Of a stretch of 20,167 nt of DNA, positions 4,388 to 17,885 are shown in pieces. Source of the stretch: a virus; the IMG/VR virus record IMGVR_UViG_3300047560_000198, positions 1 to 20,167 of that record; one strand, written 5' to 3'. The notes under the pieces are model-generated. The model was given only the letters and a program-made list of their open reading frames with translations, was not told where the DNA came from and searched no databases. A program made the position numbers and the translations under genes. Every line of letters starts with the position of its first letter. The stretch's first letter is position 1.

Positions 4388-4587
4388 AATCTGAACTCCA
4401 TGTCCTCGCACATGTGCAACGTGAATTGAAAAAACTTGCCGACGAAAACATCGCCTTCTTGGCGGCCAGTCGTGCCGACTCGTTTGACGAGTACAAAAAA
4501 GTCTGTGGGGTGATCCGAGGTCTAAGCCTTGCAGACTCAATCATCAATGACCTTGTGCAAAAAATGGAGAGTTCAGATGACGACTGA
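4384..4587 (+). CDS. Small conserved phage protein between portal and co-chaperonin
   Basis: This 67-aa protein of unknown function starts at an ATGA overlap with the portal stop and overlaps the following gene by 11 nt, so it is probably translationally coupled. It looks all-helical and soluble, with a Leu-rich N-terminal helix (HVLAHVQRELKKLADENIAFL), a second helix around DEYKKVCGVIRGLSLADSIINDLVQKM, and an acidic end (SSDDD). There is no signal peptide or membrane segment. The position suggests a role in head assembly, but the sequence does not identify a function. Confidence 0.8.
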   Translation: MKSELHVLAHVQRELKKLADENIAFLAASRADSFDEYKKVCGVIRGLSLADSIINDLVQKMESSDDD

Positions 4588-4993
4588 GGTGAACCCGGCG
4601 CTTGCCGTGGATCTATCCAAGATCCTCAACAAGCCAGCCGAGCAAAAGGCAAAACAATTGCCTGATCCCAAAACCTTCCGACTCCTTTGCGTTGTCCCCG
4701 AGGCAATGGAGGAGTATGCCGACAGCGATGTTGGCTTGGTGAAGTCGAGCAAGGAGATCTGGAAAGAAGAAATTCTGACCCCCGTCCTCTTTGTGATCAA
4801 GCTAGGCCCCGATGCCTATGCCGACAAAACACGGTTCCCCAATGGGCCGTCCTGCAAGGAAGGTGATTTCGTCATCGTCCGACCCAACTCAGGCACTCGC
4901 CTGAAGATTCATGGCCGAGAGTTCCGCATCATCAATGATGACGAGGTCGAGGCCACCGTTGAGGATCCGCGTGGCATTACCCGCGCTGCTTGA
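4577..4993 (+). CDS. GroES-like co-chaperonin (Cpn10 fold)
   Basis: This 138-aa protein has a GroES-like pattern after a roughly 30-residue N-terminal extension. The first strand is TFRLLCVVPEA (33-43). A candidate mobile loop around 46-60 contains the hydrophobic tripeptide GLV (53-55), where GroES carries its GroEL-binding IVL-like residues. VIKLGPDAYAD (73-83) matches the conserved VVAVGPG segment. KEGDFVIVRPNSGTRLKIHG (94-113) and REFRIINDDEVEATVED (114-130) match the C-terminal barrel strands of GroES. The ATG at 4577 is chosen because GGAG (4566-4569) is well spaced. T4 gp31 and other phage co-chaperonins replace GroES during capsid-protein folding. The location between portal and scaffold supports the same job here. 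Confidence 0.8.
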   Translation: MTTEVNPALAVDLSKILNKPAEQKAKQLPDPKTFRLLCVVPEAMEEYADSDVGLVKSSKEIWKEEILTPVLFVIKLGPDAYADKTRFPNGPSCKEGDFVIVRPNSGTRLKIHGREFRIINDDEVEATVEDPRGITRAA

Positions 4994-7158: not shown

Positions 7159-8070
7159 ATGGCTATTTCACGCGCACAACTGCTGAAAGAGTTGCTCCCC
7201 GGCCTGAACGCCCTGTTCGGCATGGAGTACGCTCGTTACGGCGAAGAACACAAAGAGATCTACGAAACCGAGACCTCTGAGCGTTCGTTTGAAGAAGAAA
7301 CCAAGCTGTCTGGCTTCTCTGCCGCACCGGTGAAGAACGAAGGTTCTGCCATCGCGTACGACAACGCACAGGAAGCTTGGACTACCCGCTATACGCACGA
7401 AACCATCGCTTTGGGTTTCTCGATCACCGAAGAGGCGATCGAAGACAACCTGTACGACAGCCTGTCTGCTCGTTACACCAAATCGCTGGCCCGTGCTATG
7501 GCTTACACCAAGCAGGTCAAGGCCGCCGCCGTCCTGAACAATGGCTTCTCTGCCAGCTACCCCGGTGGCGACGGCGTGGCTCTGTTCAGCACTGCTCACC
7601 CCTTGGTTTCTGGTGGAACCAACAGCAACACTCCCTCCACCCAAGTTGACCTGAACGAGACTTCCTTGGAAGCCGCCGTTATTCAGATCGCCGCTTGGAC
7701 GGATGAACGTGGTCTGCTGATCGCCGCCAAACCCAAGAAAATGGTTATCCCCCCGGCTCTGATGTTCGTCGCCGAGCGTCTCCTTGAGACTTCTCTGCGT
7801 GTCGGTACAAACGACAACGACATCAACGCCATCAAGAACATGGGCGCTGTGCCGGAAGGCTACACCGTCAACCACTTCTTGACGGATAACAACGCTTGGT
7901 TCCTGACGACCGACGTGCCCAACGGCATGAAGCACTTTGTCCGCACCCCCTTGCAGAACAGCATGGACGGTGACTTCGACACTGGCAACGTGCGCTACAA
8001 GGCTCGTGAGCGTTACAGCTTCGGCTGGTCTGACCCTCTGGGTATGTGGGGTTCTTCGGGTTCGTCCTGA
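7159..8070 (+). CDS. Major capsid protein (HK97-fold, Mu gpT-like)
   Basis: This 303-aa protein is the likely capsid shell subunit. Features typical of gpT-like HK97-fold capsid proteins include a helical N-terminus, an acidic E-loop region (SERSFEEETKLSGF), ETIALGFSITEEAIEDNLYDSLSARYTKSLARAMAYTKQ forming the spine-helix region, DGVALFSTAHPL (near 135-146), and a C-terminal domain with IAAKPKKMVIPPALMFVAERLLE and RYKARERYSFGWSDPLGMWG. A strong AAGGAG site (7147-7152) precedes the ATG, and a strong terminator follows, as expected for a highly expressed last gene of a head operon. No separate protease gene is seen, and the scaffold is a separate gene. Confidence 0.9.
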   Translation: MAISRAQLLKELLPGLNALFGMEYARYGEEHKEIYETETSERSFEEETKLSGFSAAPVKNEGSAIAYDNAQEAWTTRYTHETIALGFSITEEAIEDNLYDSLSARYTKSLARAMAYTKQVKAAAVLNNGFSASYPGGDGVALFSTAHPLVSGGTNSNTPSTQVDLNETSLEAAVIQIAAWTDERGLLIAAKPKKMVIPPALMFVAERLLETSLRVGTNDNDINAIKNMGAVPEGYTVNHFLTDNNAWFLTTDVPNGMKHFVRTPLQNSMDGDFDTGNVRYKARERYSFGWSDPLGMWGSSGSS

Positions 8071-8750: not shown

Positions 8751-9041
8751 ATGACGATGCAATACGACGTTAAATCAGCGCACTTGAACGCGTCTGGTTC
8801 TGTTTTCGCAGGGCCAGCGCGGGTCAAAGGCTTCTCGATTTGCGCGACTGCCAGTCAGGCCGGAACCCTCGTTTTGAAAGACGGGGGCTCTAGTGGGACG
8901 AATTTGCTTGAGGTTGACATTCCGTCCAACTCAAACCCCAACTCGTTCTACACCCTGATCCCCGGCGAAGGAATCAAGTTCAGCACAAACGTCTACGCGT
9001 CGCTGACCAACATTGCTTCTGTCACGGTGTACTATGGCTAA
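8751..9041 (+). CDS. Small beta-sandwich-like virion protein
   Basis: A 96-aa protein with a strong AAAGGAG site 6 nt before the ATG. The pattern of short strands (ARVKGFSICATASQAGTLVLKDGGSSGTNLLEVDI; FYTLIPGEGIKFSTNVYASLTNIASVTVYYG) is typical of small phage structural proteins that add one copy of a beta domain to the head or tail surface. It has no membrane segment. Its 3' end overlaps the next gene by 8 nt. The role is inferred from fold type and neighbours. Confidence 0.75.
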   Translation: MTMQYDVKSAHLNASGSVFAGPARVKGFSICATASQAGTLVLKDGGSSGTNLLEVDIPSNSNPNSFYTLIPGEGIKFSTNVYASLTNIASVTVYYG

Positions 9042-9279
9042 GACCCCAGCATGGCAACGCAAGGAAGGGAAGAATCCCAACGGAGGCTTGAACGCGAAGG
9101 GTCGCGCCTCTGCCAAGAAGCAAGGAATGAATCTCAAGCCCCCTCAGCCCGAGGGCGGCTCACGCCGAGACTCTTTCTGCGCTCGTATGGAAGGGATGAA
9201 AAAGAAGCTCACGAGCGCCAAGACCGCAAAAGATCCCAATTCGAGGATTAACAAATCCTTGAAAGCTTGGAATTGCTGA
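9034..9279 (+). CDS. Small basic protein, DUF6321-like
   Basis: An 81-aa Lys/Arg-rich protein (14 Lys and 6 Arg against 5 acidic residues). The pattern TPAWQRKEGKNPNGGLNAKGRA, then PPQPEGGSRRDSFCARMEGMKK and KDPNSRINKSLKAWNC, matches from memory the conserved DUF6321 family found in many phages. Function is unknown. The ATG at 9034 is used because homologues begin MxKTPAWQ. An upstream in-frame TTG at 9013 is less likely. Two cysteines (C49, C81) are present. It opens the run of basic proteins and is probably DNA-interacting or virion-internal, though this is not shown. Confidence 0.75.
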   Translation: MAKTPAWQRKEGKNPNGGLNAKGRASAKKQGMNLKPPQPEGGSRRDSFCARMEGMKKKLTSAKTAKDPNSRINKSLKAWNC

Positions 9280-9287
9280 GGTGGTAA

Positions 9288-9536
9288 ATGGAAATGATGT
9301 TGTGGAACGTTGTTCTTTCCTTTCTTTCCGCGCTGTTTCTCTGGGGTATCAAGCTGATGTGGGACGAGATGCAACGCATCCAAATCCTGCTCAACAGAAC
9401 CCGCGAGGAAGTTGCCAAGGAGTATGTGACCAAGGTAGATGTCCACATGGACATGGGCCGGATCATCGACAGGCTGGACCGGATGGATGCCAAGCTTGAT
9501 GCTTTTATGAAGGAGCAACGCAGTGCCATCAACTAG
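9288..9536 (+). CDS. Small membrane-anchored coiled-coil protein
   Basis: An 82-aa protein with one N-terminal hydrophobic helix (about residues 4-23, including WNVVLSFLSALFLWGIKLMW) followed by a charged heptad-like helix (about 25-77, RIIDRLDRMDAKLDAFMKEQ). This topology is shared by small holin-like, spanin-like and membrane-accessory phage proteins. There is no lipobox and no nearby endolysin, so a lysis role is only a possibility. It may instead be a membrane-contacting tail or ejection component. Its end overlaps the next gene by 14 nt. Confidence 0.7.
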   Translation: MEMMLWNVVLSFLSALFLWGIKLMWDEMQRIQILLNRTREEVAKEYVTKVDVHMDMGRIIDRLDRMDAKLDAFMKEQRSAIN

Positions 9537-10017
9537 CAATAAACAACACAATTTCATGGCGGCTGTGGCTAACAACCCAGAGTTTGCCAAGAAAGCAGGA
9601 GTCCCACAGTCGGTGGGAAGCGAGTTCGTGAAAGCGGACAAGCGCAAGGCGGCAGGCGGCTCTCGGGCCGATCTTCAATCAGTCAACAAGCCCAAGACCA
9701 ATCAGGGCTCCCAAGAACTTTTCTCACGAGGTGGCGAAATGAAAGAATCCAAAGCAATGGCAAAAAAGGAAATCTCCTTCATGCAAAAAAAGGGCGCTCC
9801 CAAGTCCATGATCAAGCATGAGAAGGAAGAGTACGGCATGAAGAGTGGCGGCATGAAGAAGATGGCTTCTGGCGGCATCACCACCGCCAAGATGGGCACG
9901 GTCCGAACCGCCGCTCCTAGCCGTGATGGCGTGGCCGCAAAGGGCAAGACCAAAGGCACTCAAATCAAGATGTCCGGCTCCAAGCCGCTGGGCATGAAAA
10001 AAGGCGGCAAAGCCTGA
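9523..10017 (+). CDS. Modular basic phage protein with GKTKG tail motif
   Basis: A 164-aa basic protein starting at GTG 9523, with AGGAG at 9511-9515. It has three short modules joined by Gly/Lys linkers: KQHNFMAAVANNPEFAKKAG to about residue 40, SKAMAKKEISFMQKKGAPKSMIKHE (76-100), and a C-terminal KKMASGG (112-118) plus RDGVAAKGKTKG (134-145). The last module recurs in the next two genes. All modules are patterns seen in uncultured phage genomes but have no known function. It is probably a virion-associated or DNA-associated protein. It overlaps the upstream gene, suggesting coupled translation. Confidence 0.7.
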   Translation: MPSTSNKQHNFMAAVANNPEFAKKAGVPQSVGSEFVKADKRKAAGGSRADLQSVNKPKTNQGSQELFSRGGEMKESKAMAKKEISFMQKKGAPKSMIKHEKEEYGMKSGGMKKMASGGITTAKMGTVRTAAPSRDGVAAKGKTKGTQIKMSGSKPLGMKKGGKA

Positions 10018-10032
10018 TCTAAGGAGGCCATC

Positions 10033-10674
10033 ATGGCAAAAAGAAGTGGTGCAGGTAATCTGGCCGGGCTGGCTAGTCTGGCCGCTCTGGGCTATATGGC
10101 CCTCAAAGGTAAAGGCGAGTCCGCCCCGGTTGAAGATCGGGCGGCCAAGCCCGCTGGAGAGTATGACCCAATTGCAAGCGGCGATTGGAGCTATGGTGAG
10201 CAAGGCATGATGGCAAAAGAGCCCGACCGGGAGTCCAAAGTTGCGCCTCCCAAGGCATCTGCCAAGGCTGATGTGCAAGAAGACAGCGGCACTCCAGATC
10301 GCCGTGGCCTCTCCGAGGCCGCAAGCATGGCTCGAAACTACAAGCCGCGCCGCGATGATCCCGGTACGCTTGACCTGCGCGGCACTTCTGAGGCCCAGCG
10401 CATGGACAAGTACTACCGTCCCCGCCGTGGCCGCGCTCCTGAAGTCACCCGCGAGGACATTGAGCAAGCCAAGAAGACGGCTGATCAGCCTTTCTTCAGC
10501 GAAAAGGGGCTCACCCCCTACGCTCCGTACGTCATGGCCCCCGGCCAGAGGTACAAGAAGGGCGGCGCAGTCAAGGTCAAGAAGATGGCTTCTGGCGGGA
10601 TGACCACTTCATCCGCTTCCAAACGTGCTGACGGGATTGCTCAGAAGGGCAAGACTCGCGGCAAGATGTACTGA
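10033..10674 (+). CDS. Basic phage protein with internal 24-aa repeat and RADGIA tail motif
   Basis: A 213-aa protein with a strong AAGGAGG site (10021-10027). It starts with a short hydrophobic Ala/Leu segment (NLAGLASLAALGYMAL, 9-24), possibly a membrane-active helix. Two 24-residue repeats follow at 84-107 and 109-132, sharing the pattern GTxDxRGxSEAxxM...Y(K/R)PRR. After an acidic helix it ends with KKGGAVKVKKMASGG and the shared motif RADGIAQKGKTRGKMY (198-213). No enzyme motif is present. It may be a head-internal or ejected protein given the hydrophobic N-terminus and location, but this is inference. Confidence 0.65.
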   Translation: MAKRSGAGNLAGLASLAALGYMALKGKGESAPVEDRAAKPAGEYDPIASGDWSYGEQGMMAKEPDRESKVAPPKASAKADVQEDSGTPDRRGLSEAASMARNYKPRRDDPGTLDLRGTSEAQRMDKYYRPRRGRAPEVTREDIEQAKKTADQPFFSEKGLTPYAPYVMAPGQRYKKGGAVKVKKMASGGMTTSSASKRADGIAQKGKTRGKMY

Positions 10675-10682
10675 GGTGCAAC

Positions 10683-10937
10683 ATGGCAGAGAACATCCCC
10701 GAGTGGGCCAAGCAAGCAAAGCAAGAGGCTTCTGACGCCGAACAGCGCAAGAAGGACACGGCGGCTTATGACAAGGCCTCCCCTGAGCCTGACACCACGT
10801 TTGGCAAGCTGAAAAGCGTCATCCGCAAGGCTGGTGGCGGTACTGCTTCTGCCCGAGCTGACGGCATTGCCCAGCGCGGCAAGACCCGTGGAACCATGAT
10901 CATGTGTGGTGGCGGCTACGCCAAGGGCAAAAAATGA
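10683..10937 (+). CDS. Small basic protein with RADGIA-GKTRG motif
   Basis: An 84-aa protein. The first half is helical and charged (IPEWAKQAKQEASDAEQRKKDTAAYDKA), followed by a Gly-rich linker and RADGIAQRGKTRGTMIM (58-74), the same motif that ends the two preceding proteins. It finishes GGGYAKGKK. A GAGG at 10673-10676 precedes the ATG. It overlaps the next gene by 4 nt. Function is unknown. Repetition of the C-terminal module in three consecutive genes suggests a shared partner or localisation. Confidence 0.7.
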   Translation: MAENIPEWAKQAKQEASDAEQRKKDTAAYDKASPEPDTTFGKLKSVIRKAGGGTASARADGIAQRGKTRGTMIMCGGGYAKGKK

Positions 10938-11458
10938 GAGCCTCGCGTGGCATGGGGGCCATCAACCCGTCCAAGATGCCAAAGAAGAAGGTCATCCAGC
11001 GAACGGATGACCCGAACGACGTTGACATGTACGCCAAGGGCGGCAAGGTCAAAAAGATGGCTGAGGGCGATTTGGTTGACGAGGTCAGCCTGAAGCCCAG
11101 ATATGCCACCTCCCAGCCTGATTTTTCGGCTCTTGGGGCAACTCTTTCGGGGCGCAAGCGACTCAGCAAGGATGAGGATCTCGAGGGGTACGTTGACCTT
11201 GATGCCATGAAAGTCAGGGGCCAAGGAACCAAGGGCCAAGCATCTCGCGTTGGGTTCAACTACACCAAACGCTTCAAAGATGGCGGGGAGTCCAAAGTCA
11301 ATCAGGCGGGTGTTTACACCAAGCCGGGGATGAGGAAAGCTCTGTTTGAGTCGATCAAGTCTCGGGCGGTGCAAGGCACGGCGGCAGGTCAGTGGTCGGC
11401 CCGCAAGGCCCAACTGCTTGCCAAGCAGTACAAAGCCAAGGGCGGCGGGTACAAGTGA
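10934..11458 (+). CDS. Modular basic phage protein (GQWSARKAQ family)
   Basis: A 174-aa protein starting at an ATGA overlap. The N-terminal module GMGAINPSKMPKKK...RTDDPND leads to YAKGGKVKKMAEGD (33-46). A middle segment VSLKPRYATSQPDF...LSGRKRL (51-76) resembles short beta-rich phage modules. The C-terminal module VYTKPGMRKALFESIKSRAV, then GTAAGQWSARKAQLLAKQYK (148-167), is a pattern widespread in environmental phages, with a basic amphipathic helix and GGGYK end. Function is unknown. It may be a fusion of modules that occur as separate genes elsewhere. The 3' GTGA overlap couples it to the next gene. Confidence 0.7.
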   Translation: MRASRGMGAINPSKMPKKKVIQRTDDPNDVDMYAKGGKVKKMAEGDLVDEVSLKPRYATSQPDFSALGATLSGRKRLSKDEDLEGYVDLDAMKVRGQGTKGQASRVGFNYTKRFKDGGESKVNQAGVYTKPGMRKALFESIKSRAVQGTAAGQWSARKAQLLAKQYKAKGGGYK

Positions 11459-11688
11459 AAAAACCTCAGCAATCCCTCAAAGATTGGACTGCACAAAAGT
11501 GGAGGACGAAAAGTGGTAAACGCTCTTCTGACACAGGTGAAAGGTATCTTCCTGAAGCTGCGATCAAAGCTCTCAGCCCTGCTGAGTATGCTTCGACAAC
11601 GCGTGCAAAACGTGCTGGCAAAGCTTCGGGGAAACAATTCGTGAAGCAACCACCCAAGGTGGCGGCAAAAACAGCGAGGTACAGATAA
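11455..11688 (+). CDS. Small basic protein, DUF5872-like
   Basis: A 77-aa strongly basic protein (13 Lys, 7 Arg, 5 acidic). KKPQQSLKDWTAQKWRTKSG, GERYLPEAAIKALSPAEYA and TRAKRAGKASGKQFVKQP match, from memory, the DUF5872 family, which occurs in phages and giant viruses and has no established function. The GTG at 11455 overlaps the previous stop (GTGA), and homologues start MKKP, which supports it over an upstream ATG. The next ATG overlaps its TAA by one base. It probably binds nucleic acid or works in the virion, given charge and neighbours. Confidence 0.75.
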   Translation: MKKPQQSLKDWTAQKWRTKSGKRSSDTGERYLPEAAIKALSPAEYASTTRAKRAGKASGKQFVKQPPKVAAKTARYR

Positions 11689-11864
11689 TGGCTGAGAAAT
11701 GGATCCAAAAAGCAGTGAAGAAGCCCGGGGCTCTGCGCTCCGCGCTTGGTGCGAAAGAAGGGAAGCCAATTCCCGCAGGGAAGCTTGCCAAAGCCGCCAA
11801 GGCTCCGGGCAAGATGGGCCAGCGTGCCCGTCTGGCTCAAACCCTGAAGAAACTGGGGAAGTAA
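11688..11864 (+). CDS. 58-aa basic protein (KWIQKAVKKPGALR family)
   Basis: A short gene read directly: ATG 11688 overlaps the upstream TAA by one base and the stop is 11862-11864, with the next ATG immediately after. The protein has 13 Lys, 3 Arg and only 2 Glu. It has the pattern EKWIQKAVKKPGALRSALG, EGKPIPAGKL, then GKMGQRARLAQTLKKLGK, which I recognise as a conserved small phage family without known function. Perfect tiling between neighbours supports that it is real. A role binding DNA or capsid is possible, not shown. Confidence 0.75.
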   Translation: MAEKWIQKAVKKPGALRSALGAKEGKPIPAGKLAKAAKAPGKMGQRARLAQTLKKLGK

Positions 11865-12800
11865 ATGGCTCAGACATCCGGCGTATCAGCATTCAACCTT
11901 GACCTCACCGAGCTGGTGGAGGAAGCGTTTGAGCGTGCCGGAAGGGAATTGCGCTCCGGTTACGACCTGAGAACCGCCCGCCGCAGTTTAAACATCATGT
12001 TCGCTGACTGGGCCAACCGGGGCATCAACCTGTGGACCATCGAGACCGGAACGATCAACTTGGTTCAGGGGCAGAACACCTACGCTCTGCCCGTGGACAC
12101 CATCGACTTGCTGGAGCATGTGATCCGCACCGGTGGGAACCAAGCGGCCATTCAGGCCGACCTGACTATTACCCGAATCAGCGTCTCCACCTACGCCACC
12201 ATCCCAAACAAGCTGACACAGGCCCGCCCGATTCAGGTTTGGATTCAGCGGTACAACGGCCAGCAGTCTCCGACCGGGCTGGCAATTGACCAAACTGGCG
12301 GCATGGGCGCAACCGATACGCAGGTCACCTTGGATTCGACAGTGGGCCTCCCTGCCTCCGGGTTCGTGAAGATCGAAAACGAGATCATCAACTACGGCTA
12401 CATCTCAGGGAATACCCTGTACAACTGCTTCCGGGGTCAGGCCAACACCACGGCGGCCAGCCATGCCAACGGGACTTCCGTGTACTGGCAACAGCTCCCA
12501 GCCATCACGGTCTGGCCCACGCCCGACAACGCCCAGCAGTATCAGTTCGTGTACTGGCGCTTGCGCCGCACGCAGGACGCAGGTGGCGGCGTAAACATCA
12601 TGGACGTGCCGTTCCGCTTCATCCCCTGCATGGCGGCTGGTTTGGCCTACCAAATCGCCACCAAGATCCCAGAGGGCACAGAGAGGCTTGCAATCTTGAA
12701 ACAGCAGTACGACGAGGCTTGGGAGCTTGCGGCGTACGAGGATCATGAGAAGGCCGCTTTGAGGCTTGTGCCTCGGCAGATGTACATCGGGCGGGCCTGA
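11865..12800 (+). CDS. gp4-like head-tail connector protein with inserted beta domain
   Basis: A 311-aa protein. The N-terminal helical part (LTELVEEAFERAGRELRSGYDLRTARRSLNIMFADWANRGINLW) plus TGTINLVQGQNTYALPVDTIDLLEHVIR resembles P22 gp4-like head-completion proteins that extend the portal. The C-terminal part returns to helices (FIPCMAAGLAYQIATKIP...LKQQYDEAW). Residues about 149-207 look like an inserted beta domain (TDTQVTLDSTVGLPASGFVKI; NTLYNCFRGQANTTAASHANG), with ITVWPTPD resuming after it. It starts directly after the preceding stop. The connector role is fairly likely from pattern and position; the precise family was not checked. Confidence 0.7.
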   Translation: MAQTSGVSAFNLDLTELVEEAFERAGRELRSGYDLRTARRSLNIMFADWANRGINLWTIETGTINLVQGQNTYALPVDTIDLLEHVIRTGGNQAAIQADLTITRISVSTYATIPNKLTQARPIQVWIQRYNGQQSPTGLAIDQTGGMGATDTQVTLDSTVGLPASGFVKIENEIINYGYISGNTLYNCFRGQANTTAASHANGTSVYWQQLPAITVWPTPDNAQQYQFVYWRLRRTQDAGGGVNIMDVPFRFIPCMAAGLAYQIATKIPEGTERLAILKQQYDEAWELAAYEDHEKAALRLVPRQMYIGRA

Positions 12801-13186
12801 TGGGGAATAGGTTTGCTTCTGGCAAATGGGCAATCTCGCAGTGCGACCGCTGTGACCAGCGGTTCCTGCTGAAGGTTCTCAAGAAGGAAGTCATCAAGGG
12901 TCGCAACTACGACCTGCTGGTCTGCCCGGAATGCTGGGATCCTGATCAGCCTCAGTTGCACCTTGGCGAGTTCCCTGTTGATGATCCACAGGCGCTGAGA
13001 AATCCACGCCCTGACCGCAGTTACGTCACGTCTGGCTTGGATGCCAACGGGTATCTGTCGGGCGGGAGCAGAGACATTCAATGGGGCTGGAACCCGGTTG
13101 GCGGGTCACGTTCGATTGATAACGGGCTGACACCCAACTACTTGGTTTTGTCAGTGGAAATTGGTACAGTCACAGTTACCGTGTAA
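12800..13186 (+). CDS. Zinc-ribbon virion-module protein
   Basis: A 128-aa protein with a likely four-cysteine zinc site: CDRC (C15, C18) and CPEC (C42, C45), separated by a basic strand-turn segment (RFLLKVLKKEVIKGRNYDLLV). It continues with the conserved WDPDQPQLHLGEFPVDDPQALRNPRPD, then a Gly-rich stretch IQWGWNPVGG, and ends in beta-like EIGTVTVTV. I recognise this layout from many phage structural modules, where its function is unassigned. A one-base overlap (TGATG) couples it to the connector gene. It is probably a small head-tail or tail component stabilised by Zn. Confidence 0.75.
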   Translation: MGNRFASGKWAISQCDRCDQRFLLKVLKKEVIKGRNYDLLVCPECWDPDQPQLHLGEFPVDDPQALRNPRPDRSYVTSGLDANGYLSGGSRDIQWGWNPVGGSRSIDNGLTPNYLVLSVEIGTVTVTV

Positions 13187-13195
13187 GGAGCAAAA

Positions 13196-13366
13196 ATGGA
13201 CAAGAAGCAAGTCAAGCAGATCGCTGACACCGAAGTGCGGAAGCACGAAAAGCGCATGCACGGAGCCAAGATGGCAAAGGGCGGCGTCACCACCGATGCG
13301 ATGAAAAAGTACGGTCGCAATGTGGCTCGTGTCATGAATCAAACCGGTTCCAAGCGCGGAGGCTGA
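13196..13366 (+). CDS. 56-aa basic protein (KYGRNVARVMNQ family)
   Basis: A short gene read directly: ATG 13196, TGA 13364-13366, with AAGGAG 9 nt upstream of a run of As before the ATG. The protein has 10 Lys and 5 Arg against 5 acidic residues. It begins MDKKQVKQIADTEVRKHEKRM, passes through an AKGGVTT turn, and ends with MKKYGRNVARVMNQTGSKRGG, a pattern I recognise in environmental phages. A helix-turn-basic helix shape is likely. Function is unknown. Confidence 0.7.
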   Translation: MDKKQVKQIADTEVRKHEKRMHGAKMAKGGVTTDAMKKYGRNVARVMNQTGSKRGG

Positions 13367-13367
13367 T

Positions 13368-13619
13368 ATGGCAAAGTACAGCATGAAAAAGGGCGGCAAG
13401 GAAGTTGGACCTGCGTCCACCTACGCCGAGCCCCACACGATGAAGGGCAAGAAAGTCACTGCCGCCCCGACTCCCAAGCCGTTGAAGGCTGACGATCTGA
13501 ATCCTTCTGCTGGCAACATCTCCAAGGGCAACTACCCGCCCGTCAAGACTTCTGGTATCAAAATCCGTGGCACTGGCGCGGCAACCAAAGGCCTGATGGC
13601 CCGTGGCCCGATGGCGTGA
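13368..13619 (+). CDS. Small Lys/Gly/Pro-rich protein (IRGTGAATKG family)
   Basis: An 83-aa basic, probably largely disordered protein. It begins MAKYSMKKGGKEVG and ends SGIKIRGTGAATKGLMARGPMA, a C-terminal pattern common in uncultured phage genomes. A GGAGG (13358-13362) is well spaced to the ATG. No enzyme or membrane motif is present. It closes the basic cluster just before the adaptor-like gene. A virion-internal or assembly role is inferred only from place and composition. Confidence 0.7.
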   Translation: MAKYSMKKGGKEVGPASTYAEPHTMKGKKVTAAPTPKPLKADDLNPSAGNISKGNYPPVKTSGIKIRGTGAATKGLMARGPMA

Positions 13620-13626
13620 GGTTTGA

Positions 13627-14337
13627 ATGACCTACGATGAGCTTGTTGCGGCGATTCAGTCGTACACCGAGAACCAATTCCCAACGACCTACTTGGCCGA
13701 TGGGTCTGGTGTTACCTCGACCACCCAGATCAACACGTTCATCAAGCAAGCGGAACAGCGGATCTTCAACACGATCCAGTTCCCATCGCTTCGCAGGAAC
13801 GTCACTGGGCTGACGACCACCAACAACAAGTACCTGTCCTGCCCGAGTGACTTCTTGGCCGTCTATTCGATGGCGGTTGTGGATGCGCTGGGTGCGTACG
13901 AGTACCTGCTGAACAAGGATGTGAACTTCATCCGTCAGGCGTACCCGACCCCCACGGACACGGCCACACCGAAGTACTACGCCCTCTTTGGCCCTACGAC
14001 CACGAGCGGCGGCAGTCCCACCATCACCAACGAGCTGTCGTTCATCCTTGGCCCCACCCCTGATGCGGCCTACACGGTTGAGCTTCACTACTTCTACTAC
14101 CCGACCTCGATTGTTGACTCCAATGACGGCCACACATGGCTGGGCGACAACTTCGACTCCGTGCTTCTGTACGGCTCGTTGGTCGAGTCAGCTACATTCA
14201 TGAAGGCTGAGGCCGATATGGTGGCGTTGTACAACCAAAAATACCAAGAAGCTCTTGCTTTGGCAAAGCGACTTGGAGACGGCATGGAGCGTCAGGATGC
14301 GTACCGTTCTGGTCAATACAGACAGGCGGTCACATGA
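13627..14337 (+). CDS. Head-tail adaptor-like protein
   Basis: A 236-aa protein with helical N-terminus (TYDELVAAIQSYTEN, then INTFIKQAEQRIFNTIQFPSLRRN) followed by LTTTNNKYLSCPSDFLAVYSMAVV, YEYLLNKDVNFIRQAYP and NELSFILGPTPDAAYTVELHYFYYPTSIV. It ends with a helical hairpin (VALYNQKYQEALALAKRL). This arrangement, helices then a beta sheet with a C-terminal helix, is the pattern of phage adaptor proteins at the portal-tail junction (SU10-type adaptors, from memory). It overlaps the next gene by 4 nt. Its resemblance in layout to the gene at 11865 suggests two adaptor layers. Family assignment is moderately sure. Confidence 0.65.
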   Translation: MTYDELVAAIQSYTENQFPTTYLADGSGVTSTTQINTFIKQAEQRIFNTIQFPSLRRNVTGLTTTNNKYLSCPSDFLAVYSMAVVDALGAYEYLLNKDVNFIRQAYPTPTDTATPKYYALFGPTTTSGGSPTITNELSFILGPTPDAAYTVELHYFYYPTSIVDSNDGHTWLGDNFDSVLLYGSLVESATFMKAEADMVALYNQKYQEALALAKRLGDGMERQDAYRSGQYRQAVT

Positions 14338-16293: not shown

Positions 16294-16743
16294 ATGGCGT
16301 TCATCGGCAACACCAACACCACCCAAGCGTTTACACCCGCGATTGACTATTTCAGCGGGAATGGCTCCACCACGGCATTCACTTTGTCGCGCCCGGTGGC
16401 GTCAGTGGCGCAGGTGCAGGTTGTCATTGAGAACGTGCCCCAGAACCCGAGCAGTGCCTACACCATCAGTAGCAATACCATCACGTTCACCTCTGCCCCG
16501 CCCAGCGGAACGAACAACATCTATGTGTACTACACCAGCCCCATCACGCAGATCATTGCGCCGGGACAAAGCACGGTGAATCAGGTTTCGCTTGGCATCA
16601 TCAATTTCTATACTAACCCGCAAAATATCGTGGCGAACTACACCCTGCCTGATGGGTACAACGCCATGTCTGCCGGTCCTGTGACGGTGGCAACCGGTGT
16701 GACGGTGACTGTGCCCACGGGCTCAACTTGGACGGTGGTGTAA
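16294..16743 (+). CDS. Tail-fibre-like protein with SGNGST beta domain
   Basis: A 149-aa protein. The N-terminal domain (about 1-85) contains YFSGNGSTTAFTLSRPVASV, VVIENVPQNPSSAYTI and TITFTSAPPSGTNNIYVYYTSP. The same domain begins the protein at 19051, so these are paralogues sharing one module. The second half (INFYTNPQNIVANYTLPDGYNAMSAGPVTV) is a different strand-rich part with VTVPTGSTWTVV at the end, a pattern common in phage proteins of this type. It ends with TAA overlapping the next ATG by one base. It is probably a fibre subunit. Confidence 0.75.
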   Translation: MAFIGNTNTTQAFTPAIDYFSGNGSTTAFTLSRPVASVAQVQVVIENVPQNPSSAYTISSNTITFTSAPPSGTNNIYVYYTSPITQIIAPGQSTVNQVSLGIINFYTNPQNIVANYTLPDGYNAMSAGPVTVATGVTVTVPTGSTWTVV

Positions 16744-17096
16744 TGAGTACGCTCAAGGTAACAACTATTCAGAACCTGTCCGGCACGGAGGTGTACACCG
16801 CCAAGGCGTGGGTGAACTTCAACGGGACTGGAACTGTCGCCATCCGGGCCAGCGGGAACGTTTCATCAATCACTGACAACGGCACGGGTGATTACACCGT
16901 GAACTTCACTGTGGCAATGACGGATGCGAATTACAGTGGGGTTGCTTTATTTGGAAATGGGAATACTGTTTCTGTTGCTCCGGTTGCAGATATTGGTGCA
17001 GCACCAACAACAAGCGCGTTTAGAGTTTTATCCTACTTAAGATCAACAGGTGCGGCTTTAGATGTGGCGTATTGCAACGTCGCCATTTTCCGCTGA
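16743..17096 (+). CDS. Tail-fibre-like paralogue 1
   Basis: A 117-aa protein beginning STLKVTTIQNLSGTE. The conserved core is KAWVNFNGTGTVAIRASGNV followed by SSITDNGTGDYTVNFTVAM and DANY. A variable second half follows, then the conserved end NVAIFR. The same plan occurs in the genes at 17106 and 17514, so it is one of three tandem paralogues. An internal ATG at 16743 overlaps the previous TAA and is used rather than 16728. The variable half (about 16935-17070) is noticeably AT-richer than the core. It is probably a receptor-contacting fibre tip. Confidence 0.75.
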   Translation: MSTLKVTTIQNLSGTEVYTAKAWVNFNGTGTVAIRASGNVSSITDNGTGDYTVNFTVAMTDANYSGVALFGNGNTVSVAPVADIGAAPTTSAFRVLSYLRSTGAALDVAYCNVAIFR

Positions 17097-17105
17097 GATC
17101 AAATC

Positions 17106-17501
17106 ATGTCCACCATCAAGACCACGACACTCAGCAACGTAGCAGGAACTTCATCGGTTCCTGTGGATACCGTCATCAATGGCAGTGCCAAGGCGTGGGC
17201 GCGCTTTGATGGAACTTCGGGCACCTTATATGGCGGGTTCAACATTTCGTCAGTCACAGATAACGGCACCGGCAATTTCACGTTGAATTTCATAACTGCT
17301 TTTTCGGATACAAATTATTCGCTTGTTGCAATGGCGGAGCCAAGTGGAGGAACCTACTATCAAGTCATGGGCAAATCCTCTACTGGGGCGTTTTCTCGGA
17401 CAACCAGCACGGCACAAGTTTGTACGGCCTACGTAACGAGCACTGGTGGTGCAAGTACTTTGTACGACTGTACCTACATTAATGTAGTAGTCTTCCGCTG
17501 A
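17106..17501 (+). CDS. Tail-fibre-like paralogue 2
   Basis: A 131-aa protein with the same plan as its two neighbours: STIKTTTLSNVAGTSS start, then KAWARFDGTSGTLYGGFNIS and SVTDNGTGNFTLNFITAFSDTNY as the core, a variable half, and a VVVFR end. The core is more diverged than those of paralogues 1 and 3. Two of the conserved strands are clear, as is the DNGTG turn. The variable half (about 17290-17400) contains AT-richer codons and several Tyr and Ser residues, plausible for ligand contact. Each copy is separate with its own start, not a fusion. Confidence 0.75.
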   Translation: MSTIKTTTLSNVAGTSSVPVDTVINGSAKAWARFDGTSGTLYGGFNISSVTDNGTGNFTLNFITAFSDTNYSLVAMAEPSGGTYYQVMGKSSTGAFSRTTSTAQVCTAYVTSTGGASTLYDCTYINVVVFR

Positions 17502-17513
17502 AAGGACACCAAC

Positions 17514-17885
17514 ATGGCAATGACAATCAGCGGATCAAACGGAGTCACCTACCCAGACGGCACATCTCAGGCGTCTGGCTCTCAGGCTTGCAAGGCGTGG
17601 GTGAACTTCAACGGGACAGGGACTGTGGCAATCAGAGCTTCGTACAACGTGAGCTCAATCACTGACAACGGGGCTGGCGACTACACAGTGAACTTCACGA
17701 CTGCCATGCCTGATGCCAACTACACAACCTTTTGCTCTAATAGAGAAAACTATGTCACTGGCACTTCCGATACTTGGGGGTTTTTATATGAGGGTCAACC
17801 AACTACATCAGCAACCCGAGTGCAAACAGGTCAAACGGCTGGTAAGTTCGACTCCGTTGAAGTTAACGTTGTCGTCTTCCGATAA
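17514..17885 (+). CDS. Tail-fibre-like paralogue 3
   Basis: A 123-aa protein. After a short N-terminal piece (TISGSNGVTYPDGTSQASGS) it has the core KAWVNFNGTGTVAIRASYNV, SSITDNGAGDYTVNFTTAM, DANY, nearly identical in protein and similar in DNA to paralogue 1. It then has a different second half (with EGQPTTSATRVQTGQTAGKFD) and ends EVNVVVFR. The GxxYPDGTxQ N-terminal pattern is common in phage fibre proteins. An AAGGA precedes the ATG. Position and modularity suggest a variable receptor-binding subunit. Confidence 0.75.
   Translation: MAMTISGSNGVTYPDGTSQASGSQACKAWVNFNGTGTVAIRASYNVSSITDNGAGDYTVNFTTAMPDANYTTFCSNRENYVTGTSDTWGFLYEGQPTTSATRVQTGQTAGKFDSVEVNVVVFR

Follow-up and report, generated by a model that had tools for sequence, protein, structure and literature searches.

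The scaffolding protein of P22-type phages, a single scaffold with a folded helix-turn-helix, binds the coat through its basic C-terminus. In phage T4, the internal proteins IPI, IPII and IPIII are small and basic and have divergent bodies; they share one terminal peptide, the capsid-targeting sequence (CTS), are packed in hundreds of copies and are ejected, and in related phages they are replaced by other basic proteins with CTS-like ends (PMC9026906). The stretch analysed here, referred to as the window, is a virus record of 20,167 bases from IMG/VR (IMGVR_UViG_3300047560_000198). It is a fragment of a short-tailed environmental phage and covers only about one third of the genome of this phage type. 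Between its capsid gene and its second adaptor-like gene lie genes for nine strongly basic proteins, named here by the first base of each gene, and three of these proteins (9523, 10033 and 10683) carry a common peptide of about 20 residues, the tag, at or near the C-terminus. We propose, with a probability of about 0.5, that the basic proteins are a packaged head-protein set with a common C-terminal head-targeting tag, like the T4 internal proteins but not homologous to them.

A previous interpretation of the letters alone (the sequence-only reading) had noted short linkers shared by the basic genes. KKMASGG was found twice (9523 and 10033) and KKMA three times; AKGGKVKKM occurs once only (10934). 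The element truly in common, a DG[I/V]Ax[K/R]GKT tag, escaped that reading; it is carried by 9523, 10033 and 10683 and is the stronger signal behind the KKMASGG-type linkers. In the main class its consensus is SASxRADG[I/C]Ax[K/R]GKT[K/R]G[K/R][M/I][V/C/Y], and the protein ends exactly five residues past GKT. The tag core was matched 464 times in 245 loci and the window; 463 matches were on the + strand, all closed ones lay within 48 residues of the stop codon, and for 293 the protein end was exactly five residues past GKT. A second class has 10–25 further residues, often ending GGK(A/C), and degenerate forms (GHT, GYT and GRT) occur in relatives. The search pattern itself dictated D, G, G, K and T; A, S, R and A before the core and G after it are found at 80 % or more and, because these flanking residues were not set by the pattern, provide independent evidence of conservation. 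Identical tag residues share the same codon in only 47 % of cases even within one genome, and it is therefore the peptide, rather than the DNA, that is conserved.

In relatives the tag is attached to dozens of bodies that bear no likeness to one another, with one to six tagged proteins in each genome. The tagged bodies were sorted by BLAST into 84 clusters (27 with two or more members), some of which may be remotely related, so that the number of independent families is uncertain. Among the relatives of 10033 the last 40 or so residues are mostly 77–89 % identical; the body is about 36 % identical or cannot be aligned. Of 240 DUF6321-type open reading frames (ORFs), 39 are tagged and 201 untagged; judged from these sequences, the tag is gained and lost on the same body. 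Tag similarity was 0.647 for the same family in different genomes versus 0.644 for different families, a coarse test made with looser clusters than the 84, including one linked cluster of 327. Selection on the tag peptide is indicated because family signal is missing from tag similarity and codon sharing is low, and on such sequence grounds there is hardly any doubt that the tag exists and is under selection at the protein level.

Other origins of the pattern were considered and rejected. A P-loop nucleoside triphosphatase reading of GxxxxGKT was dismissed because the K is replaced by H, Y or R in relatives, no domain surrounds the motif and it is found terminally in short proteins that are mostly of low complexity. 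A recent duplication or a repeat at the DNA level was dismissed as the source of the likeness, since about half of the identical residues are encoded by different codons even within one genome. The tag pattern was also scanned against about 85,000 prokaryote genomes (257 Gb); only four contigs matched, three of them of this phage type, and chance or host origin was rejected on this result. The fourth contig (L249) carries the tag at the extreme end of a bacterial contig with 75 % guanine plus cytosine and without phage anchors, and is probably a chimeric contig end.

The stretch from the capsid gene to the second adaptor gene holds 349 of the 351 tags, and of the 139 loci that span capsid to first adaptor 127 are tagged at least once. 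Twenty records of 58–87 kb hold 47 tag sites, grouped within a few kb in each record. One contig (G002, 74,238 bases, the contig behind locus L105) has two tag clusters, each in a different head module; it looks like a chimera formed from two related phages. At a capsid identity of at least 70 %, 127 of 135 loci are tagged; no tag was found in four genomes with 61–66 % capsid identity, namely DSL-LC04, HTVC027P, 023Pt_psg01 and HTVC023P, the last of which has another repeated-looking C-terminus, RGxGAAxRGxxFxG. Planktothrix phage Pag-Yong1, with 71 % capsid identity, encodes a tagged protein of 308 residues and net charge +18, ending RDGCAKRGRTKGRFI (UMO75986.1), between its minor capsid and portal-adaptor genes; it also encodes an 81-residue DUF6321 protein and a protein of net charge +17 (UMO75987.1). 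This tag was detected only through translation of the DNA; all other tagged relatives are environmental contigs. Searches of phage records by tblastn with a 40-residue tag and with 13368 gave no match, probably owing to the low-complexity filter and the short length. Because the loci were obtained largely via the capsid gene, 10033 and 11455, the link between tag and capsid clade rests mostly on the pattern scans, which did not presuppose that clade.

Whether the families occur linked or scattered was a check set by the sequence-only reading, and the outcome was linkage. Among 104 contigs that have both the second adaptor and a capsid gene at least 75 % identical to that of the window, all 104 encode DUF6321, 97 at least one tag, 93 the 9523 N-terminal element and 87 the 11455 protein. 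Unrelated phages also have DUF6321, the 9523 N-terminus, 11455 and the 10934 C-terminus. In the Pelagibacter phages HTVC033P and Lederberg the DUF6321, 11455 and 10934 C-terminal families stand together, amid further very basic small proteins, and HMO-2011 carries the latter two with a weakly DUF6321-like protein; the basic cluster of these phages resembles that of the window in this respect, but they belong to other lineages by terminase and capsid and have no tag. In T7-like P-SCSP1d a DUF6321 gene stands directly after the capsid gene, one small gene ahead of tail tubular gp11, and in T4-like cyanophages DUF6321 forms the C-terminal end of a larger protein, some 430–860 residues long, between gp16 and gp17. 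The 9034 protein belongs to DUF6321 (PF19846; 68.8 bits versus a cut-off of 28.5, profile positions 1–72 of 72), but it is a stand-alone protein of 81 residues beside the capsid gene, and its relatives can be tagged. The 44-residue element of 9523 is shared with phiKZ gp165.1 (58 residues in all) and with the jumbo-phage virion proteins CBB_322 (848 residues) and GAP32_317; these lack the tag and are otherwise unrelated. No mention of DUF6321 or of phiKZ gp165.1 was found in a literature search. Basic small proteins of DSL-LC04 (L003 1768–2218) and of L375 (17864–18133) match pieces of DUF5872 below the cut-off; in DSL-LC04 the pieces are split across two adjacent genes.

CBB_322 starts with the N-terminal element of 9523; in purified CBB virions it was detected by 30 unique peptides at a coverage of 43.6 % (PMC5259590). 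The cyanophage protein T4-GC119 ends in DUF6321, and the Syn33 record annotates it with the note 'similar to Synechococcus phage S-SM1 protein'. Over the parts of the record that were read, gp4, gp5, gp13, gp14, gp15, gp18, gp48, gp53 and GC15 bear this note, and replication genes and terminases do not; this set agrees with the newly detected virion proteins named in PMC3037559. We infer that the note marks the S-SM1 virion proteome of 41 proteins and that T4-GC119 is present in virions; S-B43 annotates this protein as structural. The packaged set suggested by the sequence-only reading is partly supported, by the linkage of the families and, indirectly, by CBB_322 and T4-GC119, with the virion data coming from homologous pieces in other phages only; that the set might condense DNA or be ejected with it, as the reading also suggested, is conjecture.

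Taken together, these sequence relationships make it quite probable that the basic proteins are packaged in the phage head, and put a targeting function of the tag at about even odds; that this phage packages them, which partner the tag binds and that the tag serves targeting are what we infer. A fast-changing set of small basic head proteins would be packaged along with the DNA, and the tag, on three proteins here and on one to six per related genome, would act as an address label. During prohead assembly the tag would attach to one shared partner, for which the lineage's own major capsid protein or scaffolding protein is the likeliest candidate, and unrelated bodies would thereby be drawn into the head, as the T4 CTS does for IPI–III. 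Inside the head, the Lys-rich bodies would probably rest on the packaged DNA, and they may leave the head together with it at ejection. Several points weigh against this proposal. The choice of binding partner depends on the co-occurrence of the tag with a single capsid clade, a pattern that common ancestry of the whole module would give equally. Some tags are followed by 10–48 further residues, so a free C-terminus is not always needed. The excess of tag similarity within genomes is small (0.654 versus 0.635 permuted; 0 of 500). No virion proteomics was found for any phage of this clade, and the virion evidence concerns homologous pieces, not the tagged proteins themselves.

The tag might instead be a nucleic-acid-binding peptide whose Arg/Lys/Gly pattern binds packaged DNA, with packaging achieved through the DNA rather than through a capsid or scaffold address. 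Tag and bodies are both basic, and K and R replace each other at the K/R positions of the tag, where charge is thus conserved; a charge-driven peptide would, however, have no need of the uncharged positions flanking the core (S, A, S, A and the G after GKT[KR]), which are kept at about 80 % or more, and the tag tracks one capsid clade and is absent from other phages with the same basic families. We regard this explanation as unlikely. Tight linkage to the capsid clade and a place adjoining the capsid gene are also what would be expected of assembly helpers, that is, scaffold cofactors or a prohead core that bind capsid or scaffold transiently through the tag, leave before DNA packaging and are not found in mature virions. 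That no separate prohead protease was recognised in the window fits such helpers as well. The presence of CBB_322, and by inference of T4-GC119, in mature virions speaks against them, and the one to six different tagged proteins of each genome, whose bodies change fast, resemble cargo rather than a core scaffold; a helper role is accordingly judged rather improbable.

Descent offers a further explanation, in which one ancestral basic protein was duplicated, the bodies diverged and the tag was kept by its own structure without a targeting role. The tagged genes are adjacent, and some clusters share more motifs, such as KKMASGG and a DLAGLAALG N-terminus. This account sits poorly with the occurrence of the same body with and without the tag (the DUF6321-like ORFs), with the missing family signal in the tag sequences and with the inclusion among the bodies of DUF6321, which is untagged in many phages, and it is given little credence. 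Even less is given to early-acting or host-directed proteins, for example anti-host peptides, that merely happen to be sited in the late module and are non-structural. In its favour, most of the families are without known function and gene content differs among relatives; the strict head-module position in nearly every relative and the detection of a protein relative in virions (CBB_322) are against it.

The layout of the nine genes agrees for the most part with the sequence-only reading. All nine ORFs are present at the starts that it named, those at 9523 and 11455 with a GTG start, and its net charges (K+R−D−E) for 9034, 11455, 11688 and 13196 (+15, +15, +14 and +10) were correct; two genes for which it gave no count, 9523 and 10934, are still more basic (Table 1). 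A net charge of at least +7 is found in exactly 9 of the 37 window genes, all within one ten-gene group (hypergeometric p = 8e-8), and the highest value outside the basic run is +2. The basic genes do lie between capsid and adaptor as described, but their run is not unbroken, being interrupted by non-basic 9288, 11865 and 12800. The statement that all families lack a known function needs a similar correction: 9034 is Pfam DUF6321, and a named function, 'virion structural protein', is attached only to phrog_22033 and phrog_25121 (9523 N-terminus). PHROG matches were obtained for 9523 (first 44 residues), 10934 (last 57 residues), 11455 and, weakly, 11688. In Pfam and PHROG family searches 10033, 10683 and 13368 gave no match and 13196 a marginal one only.

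Table 1. Features of the basic run and its anchors in the window (all on the + strand).
Feature	Position	Strand	Net charge	Evidence or remark
Major capsid protein, module anchor	7159..8070	+		phrog_371 major head protein, E 2e-23; 88–96 % identity to nearest relatives
81-residue basic protein, DUF6321, untagged here, often C-terminally tagged in relatives	9034..9279	+	+15	Pfam PF19846, E 6.5e-19
82-residue non-basic protein with hydrophobic N-terminal segment, inside the basic run	9288..9536	+	−1	Weak PHROG matches
164-residue basic protein, N-terminal element and tagged C-terminus	9523..10017	+	+22	Largest tagged cluster, n = 87
N-terminal 44-residue element of 9523	9523..9654	+		76 % identity to phiKZ gp165.1 over 42 residues
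Tag form of 9523, about 20 residues before the C-terminus, APSRDGVAAKGKTKGT, then ..MKKGGKA-stop	9910..9957	+		
213-residue basic protein: hydrophobic N-terminal segment, low-complexity middle, tag at extreme C-terminus	10033..10674	+	+13	
C-terminal tag of 10033, SSASKRADGIAQKGKTRGKMY-stop	10609..10674	+		End conserved versus divergent body
84-residue basic protein with tag	10683..10937	+	+7	
Tag of 10683, TASARADGIAQRGKTRGTMI, then MCGGGYAKGKK-stop	10842..10901	+		
174-residue basic protein, N-terminal RGMGAINPSKMP element, C-terminal GQWSARKAQLLAKQYKAKGGGYK element	10934..11458	+	+18	phrog_17747 over residues 118–174
77-residue basic protein, never tagged	11455..11688	+	+15	phrog_14910, E 3e-35
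58-residue basic protein	11688..11864	+	+14	Detected in 18/104 contigs
Adaptor-like protein, non-basic, downstream anchor	11865..12800	+	−4	DSL-LC04 relative annotated as Pam1-type adaptor
Conserved non-basic protein between the two adaptor-like genes	12800..13186	+	−1	Found in 104/104 contigs
56-residue basic protein	13196..13366	+	+10	Found in 67/104 contigs
83-residue basic protein ending RGTGAATKGLMARGPMA	13368..13619	+	+11	Resembles HTVC023P C-termini (RGGGAAVRGMGFKGVF)
Second adaptor-like/virion protein, downstream anchor	13627..14337	+		phrog_2941 virion structural protein, E 7e-17

Many members of the 10033 family (window 10033–10100 and relatives) start with a short hydrophobic stretch (DLAGLAALGALGY-like), followed by the low-complexity region and the tag; the stretch could be a membrane-active or packing helix. 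The C-terminal element of 10934 is the last part of a 119-residue HMO-2011 protein and nearly the entire length of a 59-residue pelagiphage protein. In 11455, 42 of 77 positions are invariant among 33 relatives, and homologues 55–70 % identical occur in HMO-2011, pelagi- and roseophages. Structures predicted for 9034 (predicted local distance difference test, pLDDT, 77.5; predicted template modelling score, pTM, 0.46) and 11455 (pLDDT 79.8, pTM 0.64) are both small helical models. Comparison of their folds with the PDB gave no convincing match, and PDB profile searches with the DUF6321 and 11455 alignments returned short chance matches only; no Pfam match to an HU/IHF/histone-like domain was obtained in the basic proteins. 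A second type of C-terminal motif, RGxGAAxxGxxxxG, terminates 13368 (13368–13619) and HTVC023P proteins (L375 17481–18509); by its sequence it may be another address tag in sister lineages. The 82-residue protein at 9288–9536 has one hydrophobic segment and a NRTREEVAKEYVTK motif, and shows weak likeness to phrog_462 'lipoprotein'.

From terminase, portal and a GroES-like gene the window runs through scaffold-like, capsid and cement-like genes to the basic run, and from there to two adaptor-like genes and the tail genes. Among cultured phages, Pag-Yong1 and the lake phage DSL-LC04 are nearest to it. The best terminase matches (53–58 %) are to seawater phage 023Pt_psg01, pelagiphage HTVC027P and DSL-LC04; the capsid protein is 61–66 % identical to those of the same three phages and 71 % to that of Pag-Yong1, and capsids are 86–96 % identical in the best 80 of at least 600 related environmental contig stretches. 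The GroES-like co-chaperonin gene (4574–4993, between portal and scaffold) is retained across the clade and in distant relatives. Three adjacent genes at 16728–17885 encode paralogous proteins (KAWVNFNGTGTVAIRAS..SSITDNGTGDYTVNF) with a repeated tail-fibre-like domain. Records OL906435, OQ594354 and PP438419, named after Planktothrix, Synechococcus and Planktothricoides, are each 65,014 bases long with identical match scores and are probably a single genome deposited three times; the MinM2 and Pra-JY27 records have the same length and the same terminase and DUF6321 match scores as Pag-Yong1.

Hypothetical genes between capsid and tail genes are abundant in environmental phage genomes. An address tag, if confirmed, would make dozens of unnamed families one testable class and predict which proteins ride inside virions, and this phage type would be a second system beside T4 in which a short peptide decides entry into the head. 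Pag-Yong1, which has been sequenced, encodes a tagged protein and is recorded from the host Planktothrix agardhii FACHB-1261, allows a direct test. Somewhat more tentatively, the C-terminal, apparently uncleaved tag could be an open cargo port: any protein that gained it would enter the head, and this lineage, abundant in fresh water, would swap dozens of them. Short-tailed phages would then have an independent counterpart of the T4 CTS, and the tag would be at hand as a peptide with which proteins of choice could be loaded into heads. No such tag was described in the literature searched on encapsidation signals of phage internal proteins, which is weak evidence of novelty as subscription journals were mostly outside the search.

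The locus resembles the T4 internal proteins in having several small basic proteins with unrelated bodies and one common short terminal peptide. The T4 CTS is N-terminal, about 10 residues long and cleaved by the gp21 protease, whereas the tag is C-terminal, about 20 residues long and of another consensus; no separate head protease was recognised in the window, that is, in about one third of the genome. The window proteins were not filed as members of the T4 internal-protein/CTS system because their peptide is C-terminal. With the P22-type scaffold the locus shares a basic C-terminal peptide in a short-tailed phage, but here the peptide is a short Gly-rich tag and is carried by many different proteins.

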